DNA from: Oceanicaulis sp. | Lineage (GTDB): Bacteria; Pseudomonadota; Alphaproteobacteria; Caulobacterales; Maricaulaceae | Reading direction: 5' to 3' | DNA: 64,000 nucleotides | NCBI GenBank assembly: GCA_020832735.1 | Contig: JAFIEB010000009.1 | Location: forward strand, 19,456-83,455 | Position numbers and translations under genes: made by a program | Part shown: positions 26,304 through 45,388 of the stretch, in pieces | Numbering within the stretch: position 1 is the stretch's first letter | Layout of the letters: each line of letters begins with the position of its first letter | Notes under the pieces: model-generated | Told to the model about the DNA's origin: nothing | Databases searched by the model: none | Seen by the model: the letters and a program-made list of their open reading frames with translations, nothing else

Positions 26304-26834
26304 ATGCAGTCGCTCAAAGACGCCATCCGCACCATTGCGGACTATCCCAAGCCGGGCATTCAGTTCCGCGACGTCACGACCCTGCTGGGCGATGCGCGCG
26401 CGTTTCGCCAGGCGGTGGATGCGATGGTCCAGCCCCATGCCGGCGCCAAGATCGACAAGGTGGCCGGCATCGAGGCGCGCGGCTTCATCCTGGGCGGGGC
26501 CGTGGCGCACCAGCTCTCGGTCGGCTTCGTGCCGGTGCGCAAGAAGGGCAAGCTGCCCCACAAGACGCTGAGCCAGTCCTATGAGCTGGAATACGGGGTG
26601 GACGAGGTGGAGATCCACGCCGACGCCGTGGCTCCCGGCGAAACCGTCCTTCTGGTGGACGATCTGATCGCCACCGGCGGCACGGCGGAGGCCGCGATCC
26701 GGCTTCTGCGCCAGGCCGGCGCCAAGGTGATCGGCGCCAGCTTTGTAGTCGATTTGCCCGAGCTGGGCGGCGCGGCGCGCATCGAGGCGATGGACGTGCC
26801 CTGCGTCTCGCTGGTCGCCTATGAGGGCCATTAG
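26304..26834 (+). CDS. apt: Adenine phosphoribosyltransferase
   Basis: [27 protein letters not shown]...[24 protein letters not shown]. Confidence 0.96.
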
Positions 26835-26843
26835 CGCTGGAGC

Positions 26844-28832
26844 TCAGCGTTCAGGCCCGCCCGGATCGAAGCGTTCCAGCTCGGCGCTGACGATGACGCT
26901 GGCCACCTGGGCGGCGTAGGTTTCGCCGCTGGCGGCGTAGGGGGCCACATGGGGCGCCAGCGCCAGCCCCGTCAGCATCTCGCCTTCAGCGCGCAGCCGG
27001 GCGCGTTCGGTCCTGAGCGGCTCGAAATCGTCATGGGTGTTGAGCAGATCCACATAATCGCCCGCCGAGGCCAGCAGGTTGGAGAAGCGCTCCTGCCCGG
27101 ACGGGAAGCGTCCGAACAGCGCGTTGCGCGCCAGCGCCGCCTCGTTCGAGCCCCAGCCTGTGGCCAGCGCCGCCTGGGCTACGCCCAGCGAAGGCGGGAT
27201 GATGTCGACGCGTTCGATCAGCGCATCCAGGTCCTCGTAGCGCACCCCGTAGCGCCGGGCGAGGGTGTCGCGGCGCGCCTGCTGGGGCAGGGGCAGGGAC
27301 TCGCCCGCCTCGATGCGTGCGCGCATGGACAATAGCGCGGCGCGGTCATCCAGGATGCGTGCGTTCTGGGCGGAGATCAGCCCGGCGGCCACCCGTGCGA
27401 AGGTGTCCCGGCGTTCCTCGGGCGCCAGCTCGGCCCAGTCGGAAGGAAAGGATTCAAGGCGCACCGCCGCGCCGGCGCCCTGCAGGGGGCCAAGCGCGGA
27501 TCGCAATTCCTCCATAGTGGCGGCGGCGAACACCCGTTCAGGCTGGGTCTCGCGCGTCACCGCCCATGACACGGCGAAGCTGAGCAGCGAGAAGCCGGCC
27601 ACCACGCCCGCCACCATGCCGGCGCTGGCCAGGCGCCCGCTGTGCTTGAGGGTCGGAGCGACGCCGAACAGGCGCGCCACCGGCCCGGCGGTCCAGCCCT
27701 GGATCACCAGCGAGGCGATGACCACGGCGAAGGCGGCGGAGAAATACAGGTTGGCGTTCTCCACCCCGGCGATCACCGGATAGGCGCCCAGAAAGATCGG
27801 CACCGCCCCGCGCAGCCCCATCCAGGCGATGAAGGCGCGCTCATTGAGGCGGAAGCGCTCCGGCGCCAGGCAGATCAGCACCGCCAGCGGGCGCGCCAGA
27901 AGGATCAGGATCAGCGCCACGCCGAGCGCGGGCAGGGCGACCTCGGCGGCGTGGCTGGGCGTGATCAGCAGGCCCAGCATCAGGAACAGGCCGATCTGGG
28001 ACAGCCAGGCCAGCCCGTCTGAGAAGCGCTCGGTGGCCTCGGCGGCCCGGCGCTGGGAGGCCGCCAGCGCCACCCCGGCCAGATACGCCGCCAGGAAGCC
28101 CGAGGCGCCGATCACCTGGGCGAAGGCGAACAGGAACACCGCCGAGGCGGCGGCGAAGATCGGATACAGCCCGATGGGCAGGCCCACCTTGCGCTCCAGC
28201 CAGCCGATCAGGCGCCCGCCGAACCAGCCGATCACCCCGCCGGCGGCCAGCGCCCAGACTATGGACACAGCCGCCCCGAACGGTTCGGGCGCGCCGCCCT
28301 GTGACAGCCAGGTCACGGCGGTCACCACCAGAATCACCGCCATGGGATCATTGAAGCCGGATTCAGCCTCCAGCGTCGTGGCCACGCGCGGACGCGCCTT
28401 CAGGTCGCGCCCTGCAATCAGCATCAGCACGGCAGCTGCGTCTGTGGACGATACGATGGCGCCCAGAAGCAAGGCCTCGATCCAGCCCAGATCGAACAGG
28501 TATTTGGCGCCCACCGCCGTCACGCCCGCGGTGATGATCACACCCAGCGTGGCCAGGCTGATCGCCGGGCGCAGCACGCCTTTCAGCCGGCGCAGGCGCG
28601 TGCCGAGCCCGCCGTCGAACAGGATCAGCGCCAGCGCCAGCGAGCCCAGCAGATAGGCGGTGTCATGATCATGGAACTCGAACCCGCCCGGACCCTCCTC
28701 GCCCGCCAGCATGCCCAGCGCCAGGAAGATCAATAGCAGGGGCGCGCCGGCGCGGCGCGTTGCGGCCACGCCCGCAATCGCCAGCAGCACCAGTCCGGCG
28801 GCGGCCAGAAGGATGAGTTCCGTCGTCTGCAT
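26844..28832 (-). CDS. CPA-type cation/proton antiporter (CvrA/NhaP2-like) with a C-terminal Bax/glucosaminidase-like domain
   Basis: N-terminal ~400 aa antiporter (ESGFNDPMAVILVV, SSTDAAAVLMLI), then an extra TM segment (GMVAGVVAGFSLLSFAVSWAVT) and RVDIIPPSLGVAQAALATGWGSNEAALARNALFGRF...LNTHDDFEPLR, which resembles E. coli Bax. Confidence 0.8.
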   Translation of the reverse strand: MQTTELILLAAAGLVLLAIAGVAATRRAGAPLLLIFLALGMLAGEEGPGGFEFHDHDTAYLLGSLALALILFDGGLGTRLRRLKGVLRPAISLATLGVIITAGVTAVGAKYLFDLGWIEALLLGAIVSSTDAAAVLMLIAGRDLKARPRVATTLEAESGFNDPMAVILVVTAVTWLSQGGAPEPFGAAVSIVWALAAGGVIGWFGGRLIGWLERKVGLPIGLYPIFAAASAVFLFAFAQVIGASGFLAAYLAGVALAASQRRAAEATERFSDGLAWLSQIGLFLMLGLLITPSHAAEVALPALGVALILILLARPLAVLICLAPERFRLNERAFIAWMGLRGAVPIFLGAYPVIAGVENANLYFSAAFAVVIASLVIQGWTAGPVARLFGVAPTLKHSGRLASAGMVAGVVAGFSLLSFAVSWAVTRETQPERVFAAATMEELRSALGPLQGAGAAVRLESFPSDWAELAPEERRDTFARVAAGLISAQNARILDDRAALLSMRARIEAGESLPLPQQARRDTLARRYGVRYEDLDALIERVDIIPPSLGVAQAALATGWGSNEAALARNALFGRFPSGQERFSNLLASAGDYVDLLNTHDDFEPLRTERARLRAEGEMLTGLALAPHVAPYAASGETYAAQVASVIVSAELERFDPGGPER

Positions 28833-28984: not shown

Positions 28985-29248
28985 ATGACGCCCGGCGAAG
29001 TGCTCGACATTGCGACCCAGGCGATCTGGACCCTTCTGGGCATGGCCGCGCCGATCATGCTGATCGGGCTGGCCGTGGGCCTGATGATCGCCCTGTTCCA
29101 GGCGCTGACCCAGGTGCAGGAGATGACGCTGGTCTTCGTCCCGAAGATCGTGGCCATCTTCCTGGCGCTGATCGTCTTTCTGCCTCTGATGGGCGCGCTG
29201 CTGGGCGGGTTCATGGAGACGATCACCGACCGCATCGTGGCGGGGTGA
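28985..29248 (+). CDS. fliQ: Flagellar export apparatus protein FliQ
   Basis: 87 aa; GLMIALFQALTQVQEMTLVFVPKIVAIFLALIVFLP. Confidence 0.95.
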   Translation: MTPGEVLDIATQAIWTLLGMAAPIMLIGLAVGLMIALFQALTQVQEMTLVFVPKIVAIFLALIVFLPLMGALLGGFMETITDRIVAG

Positions 29249-29252
29249 GGCG

Positions 29253-30011
29253 GTGATCGCCGGGCTCGACATCGGCATGAGCCTGTTCGCCGCGGTGCTG
29301 GTGTTCGCCCGTCTGGGCGCCATCCTGATGCTGCTGCCGGGCATTGGCGAGCCGTCGATCCCCGGGCGCATCCGCCTGTCCTTCGCGCTCGCTTTCGCCT
29401 TGGCCGCCGGGCCGATGATCGCGCCGGAGCTACCGGGCCTGCCCGAAACGCTGGCCGGACTGGCCGGGTTGATCATGGTGGAGGTGGTGATCGGGCTGAT
29501 GATCGGGGCGGGCGCGCGCCTCCTGATGGCGGCGGCCGCGGTGGCCGGCCAGATCATCGCCTATCAGACGGGTCTGGCGATGGCCCAGGCCTTCGACCCC
29601 ATGCAGGGCCAGTCCGGCGCGCTCCCGGCGCAGTTCTTCAACCTTCTGTTCCTGCTGCTGATCTTCACCACGAACATCCATCACCTGCTGCTGCAGGCGG
29701 CGGCGGGGTCCTACGCGCTCATGCCCGCCGGCCAGGCGCCGATCTGGGGCGATGCGGCGCAATGGGCGCTGGGCCTGTTCATCGACAGCTTCGTGATTGC
29801 GGTGCGCATCGCCTCGCCGCTGATCGCCTTTGGCCTGATCTTCTATCTGGGCCTGGGGGTGTTGTCCCGGCTGATGCCCCAGGCGCAGATTTTCTTCATC
29901 GCCATGCCGCTGAACATCATGATCGGGTTCGCCATTCTGGCGATCTCGCTGGGTACGATGGCGATGATCTGGGCCGAACGCCTGGAAGAATTCGCCGTGA
30001 CCCTGGGCTAG
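29253..30011 (+). CDS. fliR: Flagellar export apparatus protein FliR
   Basis: 252 aa; FARLGAILMLLPGIGEPSIPGRIRLSFALAFALAAGP; GTG start. Confidence 0.94.
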   Translation: MIAGLDIGMSLFAAVLVFARLGAILMLLPGIGEPSIPGRIRLSFALAFALAAGPMIAPELPGLPETLAGLAGLIMVEVVIGLMIGAGARLLMAAAAVAGQIIAYQTGLAMAQAFDPMQGQSGALPAQFFNLLFLLLIFTTNIHHLLLQAAAGSYALMPAGQAPIWGDAAQWALGLFIDSFVIAVRIASPLIAFGLIFYLGLGVLSRLMPQAQIFFIAMPLNIMIGFAILAISLGTMAMIWAERLEEFAVTLG

Positions 30012-30020
30012 GAGCGCGCG

Positions 30021-31094
30021 ATGGCCGAAGGCGAAGACAAGTCTGAAAAGACCGAGCAGCCGACCGAGCGCAAGCTGAAGAAGGCGCGCGATGAGGGCGA
30101 TGTCGCCAAGTCCCAGGAGATTTCCGGCTGGTTCACCCTGGCGGCGGGCCTGGCGGTGATCGCCTTCATGGCGCCGGGCTTCACCCGCGAGCTGGCGCGC
30201 GCCATGAGCGTGTTCCTGGAGCGCCCCCATCAGCTCAGCCTGGACGGCGGCGCGGCGCTGGGGCTGGTGATGCAGTCCCTGACCATGCTGGCGCTGATCC
30301 TGGGGCTGGCCTACGCCCTGCTGATGGTGGCGGCGGCGGCGGGCAATCTGGTCCAGCACGGCCTGTTGTGGACGCCCAAGAAGATCGCGCCCAAGCTCAA
30401 CAAGCTGAACCCGGTCGAGGGTTTGAAGCGCATGTTCGGGCCGCAGGGCTGGGTCAATTTCCTCAAGGGCGTGGGCAAGATCACCCTGGTGGGCGCCGCG
30501 ATCGCGCTGGTGCTCTGGCCGCGCCGGGACGATCTGGCGAGCTTCCCGATGATCAGCCCGGCGCGCATGCTGTCCGAAGTGCACGGCGCGGCTGTGATGC
30601 TGCTGATCGCGGCGCTGATCGCTTACGCCGCCATCGCCGCGCTCGACTGGGTGTTCCAGCGCCATCAGTTCATCGAGCGCAACAAGATGAGCCGCAAGGA
30701 GCTGCGCGACGAGTTCAAGGAGACCGAGGGCGATCCGCTGGTGCGCGCCAAGCTGCGCCAGATACGCCAGGAGCGCGCCCAGAAACGCATGATGAGCCGG
30801 GTGCCCGACGCCGCGGTGGTGATCACCAACCCGACCCACTACGCCGTGGCGCTGGAATACGAGCAGGGCCGCACGGCCGCCCCGATCTGCATCGCCAAGG
30901 GCGTGGACGTGGTCGCCCTGCGCATCCGCGAACGCGCCGAAGAGCTCGACATTCCCATCGTCGAGGACCCGCCGCTGGCGCGCGCGCTCTACGCCACCAC
31001 CGATCTGGACGACCCCATCGATCCTGAACACTACGCCGCCGTGGCCAAGGTGATCGGCTATGTGCTCAGCCTGTCGGAGCGCCGGCGGCGCTGA
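30021..31094 (+). CDS. flhB: Flagellar export protein FlhB
   Basis: EDKSEKTEQPTERKLKKARDEGDVAKSQEI; autocleavage motif NPTH (VVITNPTHYAVAL). Confidence 0.97.
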   Translation: MAEGEDKSEKTEQPTERKLKKARDEGDVAKSQEISGWFTLAAGLAVIAFMAPGFTRELARAMSVFLERPHQLSLDGGAALGLVMQSLTMLALILGLAYALLMVAAAAGNLVQHGLLWTPKKIAPKLNKLNPVEGLKRMFGPQGWVNFLKGVGKITLVGAAIALVLWPRRDDLASFPMISPARMLSEVHGAAVMLLIAALIAYAAIAALDWVFQRHQFIERNKMSRKELRDEFKETEGDPLVRAKLRQIRQERAQKRMMSRVPDAAVVITNPTHYAVALEYEQGRTAAPICIAKGVDVVALRIRERAEELDIPIVEDPPLARALYATTDLDDPIDPEHYAAVAKVIGYVLSLSERRRR

Positions 31095-43450: not shown

Positions 43451-43657
43451 GATGCTCCCCCTTGATGCCGGCCCGTGCGCCTTCAGGCGCAAACCTGCCG
43501 CGCCGCGCAGCCCGCGTCCAGTTCGCACGGTCTTTTCCTTTGACGGCGCAGCGGGATTCGCCGCAAACAATGGCGTATATATCTAAAGCAAGTAAGCCGG
43601 ACTTTCGGCGCGCGATGATGCGCCCCGATGATGCGGGGCAGATGCGGGCGGGCGGCC

Positions 43658-45388
43658 ATGAATGACCTGATTTCCCAGTCGATCTTCTACGAGATCGCCA
43701 TATTGCTGAGCGTCGCCGCCGCCATCGGCCTGGTGGGCCATATCCTGCGCCAGCCCCTGATCGTCAGTTTCATCGTGGTGGGCATCATCGCCGGCCCGTC
43801 CGTGCTGGACCTGATCCGGTCCGATGACAGCGTGGGCGTTCTGGCCCAGCTGGGCATCGCGCTGCTGCTGTTTCTGGTCGGCATCAAGCTGGACCTCAAA
43901 CTGATCCAGTCGCTGGGTCCGGTCTCGCTGCTGACCGGGCTGGGGCAGGTGGCCTTCACCTCCTTCTTCGGCTTCTTCATCGCGCTGGGCCTGGGCTTTG
44001 ACGCCATCACCAGCGTCTATATCGCGGTGGCGCTGACCTTCTCGTCCACGATCATCATCGTGAAGCTGCTCAGCGATAAACGCGAGATCGACTCCCTGCA
44101 CGGGCGCATCGCGCTGGGCTTCCTGATCGTCCAGGATATCGTGGTGGTGTTCGCCATGATCGCGCTGAGCGCGCTGGGCGTGGGCGGTCAGGAAGACGCC
44201 GGGGTCCAGGACGTCCTGATGGTGCTGGGCGCGGGCGTGGTCATGGTGATCCTGGTCGTGCTGTTCATCCGCTACGCCGCCACGCCGCTGACTTCCAGGC
44301 TGGCCGGATCGCCCGAGCTCCTGATCACCTTCTCCATCGCCATGGCGGCGGCCTTTGCGGCGATCGGCGATATATTCGGGGTCGGCAAGGAGCTGGGCGG
44401 CCTGCTGGCGGGCGTGGCGCTGGCCTCCACGCCCTATCGCGACGCGATCTCGGCCCGGCTGGCCTCCTTGCGCGATTTCCTCTTGCTGTTCTTCTTCGTC
44501 GCGCTGGGCTCCCAGCTCGATCTGTCGCTTATCGGCGAGAATATTCCCGCCGCGGTGGTGTTCTCCCTCTTCGTGCTGATCGGCAATCCGCTCATCGTCA
44601 TGGTGATCATGGGGGTGATGGGTTACCGCAAACGCACCGGGTTCCTGGCCGGTCTCACCGTGGCGCAGATTTCAGAGTTTTCGCTGATCTTCATGGCCAT
44701 GGGGCTGGCCATCGGCCATGTGAACGAGCAGGCGCTGGGCCTGGTCACGCTGGTGGGCCTGATCACGATCGGCGCCTCGACCTACATGATCACCTATTCC
44801 CACCGGCTCTACCCCTTGCTGGAGCCGGTGCTGGGCGTGTTCGAGCGCAAGGCGCTCCAGCCTGCCGAGAACGGCGAGGCGGACGCCGCCAAAGGGCGCC
44901 ATGACGTGATCCTGCTGGGGCTGGGGCGCTATGGCGGCGCCATCGCCCAGCGTCTGATCAAGAACGACATCTCGGCGCTGGGGGCGGACTTCAACCCGTC
45001 CGCCGTGCGCACCTGGCGCGAGCGCGGGCTGGACGCCATCTATGGTGATCTGTCCGATCAGGAATTTCTCACCCATTTGCCGCTCAAGGGCGTCCAGTGG
45101 GTGATTTCCACGGCCACCGACCGCGAGACCGGCGTCGCGCAGGAAGACAGCCGGATCGCCATGATCAAGACGCTGCGCAAGTTCGGCTACCGGGGCAAGA
45201 TCGCGGTGACCAGTCAGCACGGCACGCGCATTGACGAGCTGATAGAGGCGGGCGCCGATCTGGTGCTGCAGCCCTTCCAGGACGCCGCCGACCGGGCGGT
45301 GGACCTGATCAGCGGGCGCTCTGATCTCAATATCGAGCGCCTCGATCCGGTCGAGGACGCCGAGGACCAGAAAGACATTCCCGAGTAA
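43658..45388 (+). CDS. KefB-like cation:proton antiporter with C-terminal TrkA-N (RCK) domain
   Basis: GHILRQPLIVSFIVVGIIAGPSVLDL...VALTFSSTIIIVKLLSDKREIDSLHGRIALGFLIVQDIVVVFAM...VILLGLGRYGGAIAQRLI. Confidence 0.9.
   Translation: MNDLISQSIFYEIAILLSVAAAIGLVGHILRQPLIVSFIVVGIIAGPSVLDLIRSDDSVGVLAQLGIALLLFLVGIKLDLKLIQSLGPVSLLTGLGQVAFTSFFGFFIALGLGFDAITSVYIAVALTFSSTIIIVKLLSDKREIDSLHGRIALGFLIVQDIVVVFAMIALSALGVGGQEDAGVQDVLMVLGAGVVMVILVVLFIRYAATPLTSRLAGSPELLITFSIAMAAAFAAIGDIFGVGKELGGLLAGVALASTPYRDAISARLASLRDFLLLFFFVALGSQLDLSLIGENIPAAVVFSLFVLIGNPLIVMVIMGVMGYRKRTGFLAGLTVAQISEFSLIFMAMGLAIGHVNEQALGLVTLVGLITIGASTYMITYSHRLYPLLEPVLGVFERKALQPAENGEADAAKGRHDVILLGLGRYGGAIAQRLIKNDISALGADFNPSAVRTWRERGLDAIYGDLSDQEFLTHLPLKGVQWVISTATDRETGVAQEDSRIAMIKTLRKFGYRGKIAVTSQHGTRIDELIEAGADLVLQPFQDAADRAVDLISGRSDLNIERLDPVEDAEDQKDIPE

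Follow-up and report, generated by a model that had tools for sequence, protein, structure and literature searches.

An NhaP2-like cation/proton antiporter fused to a predicted periplasmic, apparently disarmed Bax/GH73 domain in Oceanicaulis and related bacteria

Introduction

The NhaP2/CvrA K+/H+ antiporters (PRK05326) share the membrane core of the protein described here, and relatives in the same order have cores that are 40–48% identical to it. The unfused relatives in the order have either no tail, with a total length of about 400 amino acids, or a hydrophilic tail, with a total length of about 600–700 amino acids. This hydrophilic tail (around 215–228 residues) gives a weak match to CorC_HlyC and is placed in the cytosol by the same topology analysis that is used below.

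The carboxy-terminal part of our protein is homologous to protein Bax of E. coli (PRK10356) and its alphaproteobacterial homologues, which are standalone proteins, and shares its fold and profile matches with the GH73 catalytic domains of FlgJ, Auto and AtlA. In the GH73 family, the strictly conserved proton donor is a glutamate (E212 in AtlA, E184 in FlgJ; PMC9108991). In AtlA, a beta-hairpin shapes the active site, and residues of this hairpin contact the docked glycan (PMC9108991).

Two further systems are comparable in their way of working only. The flagellar stator B subunit, as in MotB-type stators, has a periplasmic region with a peptidoglycan-binding domain that positions the ion-conducting membrane complex (PMC9093738); these proteins are unrelated to the fusion, for which we infer wall binding. 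The catalytically inactive LytM regulators EnvC, NlpD and DipM contain a dead wall-enzyme domain that is under selection as a regulator (PMC10336132), although they differ from the fusion tail in fold and have no transporter part.

Results

The fusion gene and its surroundings

The window, a 64,000-nucleotide stretch of an Oceanicaulis sp. contig (JAFIEB010000009.1), contains the fusion gene on the minus strand (26844..28832). It codes for 662 amino acids plus a stop, with the start codon at 28832, a position common to the homologues, the stop codon at 26844–26846 and no internal stops. The initial annotation had described a single uninterrupted frame, and this description is correct, including coordinates. 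Full-length, unbroken relatives of the fusion, at 42–89% identity, are present in many independent assemblies; several of these are single-contig genomes, and the gene contexts differ between assemblies. Two genes merged by a frame, assembly or annotation error, a reading for which no supporting evidence was found, are therefore ruled out for all practical purposes.

The gene is located between apt (26304–26834) and fliQ-fliR-flhB (28985–31094), all of which are on the plus strand, opposite to it. This arrangement is conserved within the genus and not beyond; elsewhere the gene is found in unrelated places, so a flagellar role deduced from gene context is unsupported. The gene context does not indicate a wall pathway among the neighbours either.

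The antiporter core

The amino-terminal part (residues 1–386; 27675..28832, minus strand) is a CPA1/NhaP2-like cation/proton antiporter core with 13 trans-membrane helices. Residues 15–386 match the Pfam family Na_H_Exchanger (PF00999) with an E-value of 2.6e-53, and residues 1–393 match the NCBIfam potassium/proton antiporter models with an E-value of 3e-143, scoring 478 bits against NF003715 (cut-off 309). These matches agree with the CvrA/NhaP2-like identity proposed earlier. The AlphaFold model of the full-length protein has a pLDDT of 80.9 and a pTM of 0.73, and the fold of its core is closest to PaNhaP and MjNhaP1 (Foldseek E-values of about 1e-13 to 1e-12). The ND pair that binds the ion in CPA1 antiporters, N161-D162, is encoded at 28347..28352 (minus strand). 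Together with T130, D131 and R341, it is invariant across 29 fused proteins, covering the TDA, ND and R elements of the ion site; transport is therefore probably intact. Judged by these matches, the gene product would be an NhaP2/CvrA-type cation/proton antiporter, with K+ as the most likely cation. The PRK05326-type family model (length 595) is matched up to position 393 only. Where the longer NhaP2/CvrA members have a cytosolic regulatory tail, our protein has a Bax-like one that is predicted to be periplasmic.

There are three PF00999 matches in the genome in all. A second cation/proton antiporter-type protein of 586 amino acids, with a Kef-like membrane domain, is encoded elsewhere in the window (43628–45388, plus strand); by eye, it ends in a nucleotide-binding (KTN-like) stretch.

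The fourteenth helix and the topology

The extra hydrophobic segment noticed after the antiporter is confirmed as a helix in the model (residues 400–428; 27549..27635, minus strand), with a hydropathy peak at residues 410–419, and is assigned as a 14th trans-membrane helix (TM14) on these grounds and from the positive-inside pattern. The mean numbers of lysines plus arginines in successive loops of 18 homologues are 0.0, 1.2, 0.2, 4.5, 0.1, 3.1, 0.1, 2.1, 0.0, 2.7, 0.0, 2.6, and then 0.0 and 3.1, a clean alternation. The predicted arrangement is thus one in which the first 13 helices start outside and end inside, with the tail placed outside again after helix 400–428. The topology check called for in the initial annotation points, as a prediction, to a periplasmic tail; the extracytoplasmic location expected of a GH73/Bax domain is likewise a positive-inside prediction only. 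Few parts of the protein are less conserved than the linker and TM14.

Compared with the unfused relatives, the fusion differs in having TM14 and the predicted periplasmic pseudo-Bax domain. It would represent a third kind of tail in the subfamily, lying across the membrane from the cytosolic one.

The Bax/GH73-like domain

The predicted periplasmic pseudoenzyme domain is made up of residues 441–662 (26847..27512, minus strand), identified by profile, AlphaFold and PDB matches. Residues 473–642 match the NCBIfam model "protein bax" with an E-value of 2.5e-18 (9e-20 for the tail alone), aligning to profile positions 75–258 of 274, and all 18 tails scanned match this profile. Residues 541–650 match the Glucosaminidase family PF01832 with an E-value of 1.1e-6 and 29.8 bits, slightly below the gathering score of 30.2. 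Profile matches to AtlA (E-value 3.6e-6) and FlgJ (2e-5) are also found; a plain phmmer search of the tail against the PDB gave nothing convincing, only the profile search being successful. The AlphaFold model of the tail alone (pLDDT 91.1, pTM 0.87) is all helical, and its best PDB matches are the GH73 enzymes Auto (3fi7) and AtlA (7qfu), with a Foldseek probability of 1.00 and E-values of just 0.01–0.05. Profile homology and model fold together bear out the resemblance to E. coli Bax and the GH73 fold that had been noticed by eye, and the tail is homologous to this group in both sequence and fold.

The former catalytic motif, ESGWG in active enzymes, aligns with ATGWG in our protein (residues 557–561; 27150..27164, minus strand). 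Ala557, with its codon at 27162–27164, occupies the position of the catalytic glutamate, just as was read from the stretch AQAALATGWG; FlgJ, Auto and AtlA have a glutamate where the fusion tail has alanine. The proton donor that characterises GH73/Bax enzymes is lacking in the whole fused clade, which extends the original observation from one protein to many: in a joint alignment, this column contains alanine in 28, serine in one and threonine in one of 30 distinct fused tails, while it is glutamate in all 63 standalone Bax proteins. The profile aligns the tail motif to ALETGWG in FlgJ entry 3vwo and to ALATGWG in FlgJ entry 3k3t, the latter being letter for letter the natural motif of the tail. 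Entry 3k3t is an engineered E185A mutant of FlgJ.

The active-site beta-hairpin, which lies over the groove in active GH73 enzymes, is mostly deleted as well. Its site corresponds, by alignment, to residues 575–592 (27057..27110, minus strand). The segment has a median length of 17 residues in the fused tails versus 35 in standalone Bax, where the hairpin is usually longer, and hairpin columns are gapped in 27–30 of the 30 fused tails. Consistently, there is no strand in the tail model. Since the hairpin contacts the substrate in AtlA and is largely absent here, one should not presume that the tail binds glycan; its affinity for glycan may be gone too. Other positions conserved in standalone Bax have been lost in the fused tails, namely S558 (to threonine), T562, R564, N596, Y603 (to phenylalanine) and S633 (to alanine). 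Positions F478, N490, R497, P546, Q553, the GWG triplet, N570, G574, R607, R610, Y632 and Y639, which belong to the fold, are retained.

Distribution

Full-length fusions, each in one frame, are present in 17 of 99 relatives and in 25 of 299 genomes of the order. When both samples are pooled, the fusion is found in at least 29 distinct genomes of the order, so the domain pair that was to be sought in related families does recur there. The named carriers belong to the Maricaulaceae and Parvularculaceae, with one from the Hyphomonadaceae, and are mostly marine bacteria. A separate collection contains 17 genome records with the fusion, among them Alkalicaulis satelles, Oceanicaulis, Glycocaulis albus, Maricaulis sp., Marinicauda pacifica, Euryhalocaulis caribicus, Aquisalinus flavus and A. 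luteolus, one Parvularculaceae and one Hyphomonadaceae bacterium. This patchy distribution (25/299) implies that the function of the fusion is dispensable in many relatives. About half of the same genus (G002–G007, G009, G014) has neither the fusion nor a close antiporter relative.

No fusion was seen outside the order in samples, not complete surveys, of 385 genomes of the class and 399 of the phylum. Tail homologues occur in 170 of the 385 and 131 of the 399, and the ones examined are standalone Bax. Long class-level frames (L093–L100), considered as candidate fusions, turned out to be standalone Bax with amino-terminal extensions and no antiporter, and the other listed open frames from class and phylum genomes show no sign of one. 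Four alphaproteobacterial genomes (G462, G179, G293 and G385) have two adjacent standalone Bax genes.

Replacement of an ordinary antiporter by the fusion was also considered. In the 299 genomes, 25 have the fusion, 38 an unfused relative and one has both, where about three would be expected by chance, a difference that is not significant and is confounded by kinship. One genome (G592, L170) contains the fusion plus a relative with the cytosolic tail.

Selection and origin

The dN/dS ratios over 13 pairs are 0.06–0.27 for the tail and 0.01–0.10 for the core; these are simple pairwise estimates, and some dS values are high. The tails evolve faster than the cores, and the ratios show them to be under purifying selection. 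Within the tail, the stretch 557–562 is the best conserved, at 0.90 versus 0.47–0.80 elsewhere.

The fused tails fall on one side of a branch with the 63 standalone Bax proteins on the other (SH-aLRT 100), and the fused cores are likewise separated from 22 unfused relatives (SH-aLRT 99); both trees were made with a quick method without bootstrap and with midpoint rooting only, and long branches were flagged in the core tree. As tails and cores each form one clade, the two halves have stayed together. The simplest reading of these trees is a single fusion event, with the glutamate lost before the known members split. Standalone Bax was found in none of the 299 sampled genomes of the order, and among the 99 relatives PF01832 is present only in fused copies and in one genome, G053. 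It follows that any active donor was outside the order or has been lost. The G053 match (G053:C257:372-737, L021), the sole unfused one, comes from a fragmented genome with 5% contamination and is possibly foreign.

Discussion

The likeliest role of the tail, we infer, is to anchor to the wall or sense it and in this way to gate ion flux. In its general form, that the dead periplasmic Bax/GH73 domain binds the wall and anchors the antiporter or reports on wall state or envelope spacing, we propose this tentatively and with slightly less than even confidence. TM14 and a catalytically dead domain stand where some relatives have a cytosolic regulatory tail. This domain would not cut; its ligand would be a strand of glycan or a piece of the wall, accommodated on the groove floor that the conserved ATGWG forms. 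Attached in this way, the domain would anchor the antiporter or signal wall state or envelope spacing through TM14, and K+/H+ exchange, hence turgor or pH, would be adjusted to the wall. A narrower version, in which binding of the tail to peptidoglycan that is nascent or under strain would switch K+/H+ exchange and so couple turgor and cytoplasmic pH to wall state, we consider unlikely. In favour of this role, the architecture recurs across the order with both halves kept together, ATGWG is conserved, the tail is under purifying selection, the ion site is intact and the tail is predicted to be outside; the stator B subunit and the inactive LytM domains are precedents. Counting against it are the loss of most of the hairpin, the faster evolution of the tails, a gene context that is conserved within the genus only and points to no wall pathway, and the patchy distribution.

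The main rival is a protein-partner role, in which the tail would bind and regulate an envelope protein, for example a wall enzyme of the periplasm, and the antiporter would be its membrane anchor or the regulated partner. An active-site groove that is mostly stripped while the fold is retained would suit such a module, as in the inactive LytM regulators EnvC and DipM, with DipM of Caulobacter as precedent (PMC10336132); however, no recurrent neighbour gene offers itself as the partner, and it is the motif of the former substrate site that is conserved, which leaves this explanation doubtful, if a serious one. The poor conservation of the linker and TM14 and the fast evolution of the tail would also fit a purely structural part, which senses nothing and serves to stabilise the dimer, to support biogenesis of the antiporter or to hold it in place. 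This is rather improbable, given that ATGWG is near-invariant and that fold residues are kept across three families of the order. That the tail still hydrolyses the wall, using another carboxylate or substrate-assisted chemistry, has a parallel in some GH73 enzymes, which appear to lack a second carboxylate (PMC4752226), but what is missing in 30 of 30 tails is the strictly conserved proton donor itself (E212 of AtlA; PMC9108991), and most of the hairpin has gone with it, making residual hydrolysis very improbable indeed.

As to precedence, no paper describing the architecture was found in a partial coverage of the literature, in keeping with the initial annotation, which knew of none; an automatic listing of the domain pair may exist somewhere. 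An antiporter with a periplasmic pseudo-glucosaminidase is apparently a conserved architecture that has not been described. It is also a clear example from nature of an enzyme whose active site was lost in the very lineage where it became joined to a transporter.

It is still debated how bacteria keep turgor in step with the growth of their walls. In the fusion described here, a single gene encodes both an ion antiporter and a wall enzyme that has been disarmed. Selection maintains this combination in lineages with cultured members, where removal of one domain would be enough to test whether ion flux and wall state are physically linked. That evolution has kept a disarmed wall-enzyme tail suggests that the pump may hold on to the cell wall or sense it; a wall-gated antiporter, if true, would build a direct link between ion flux and wall state into one protein chain.
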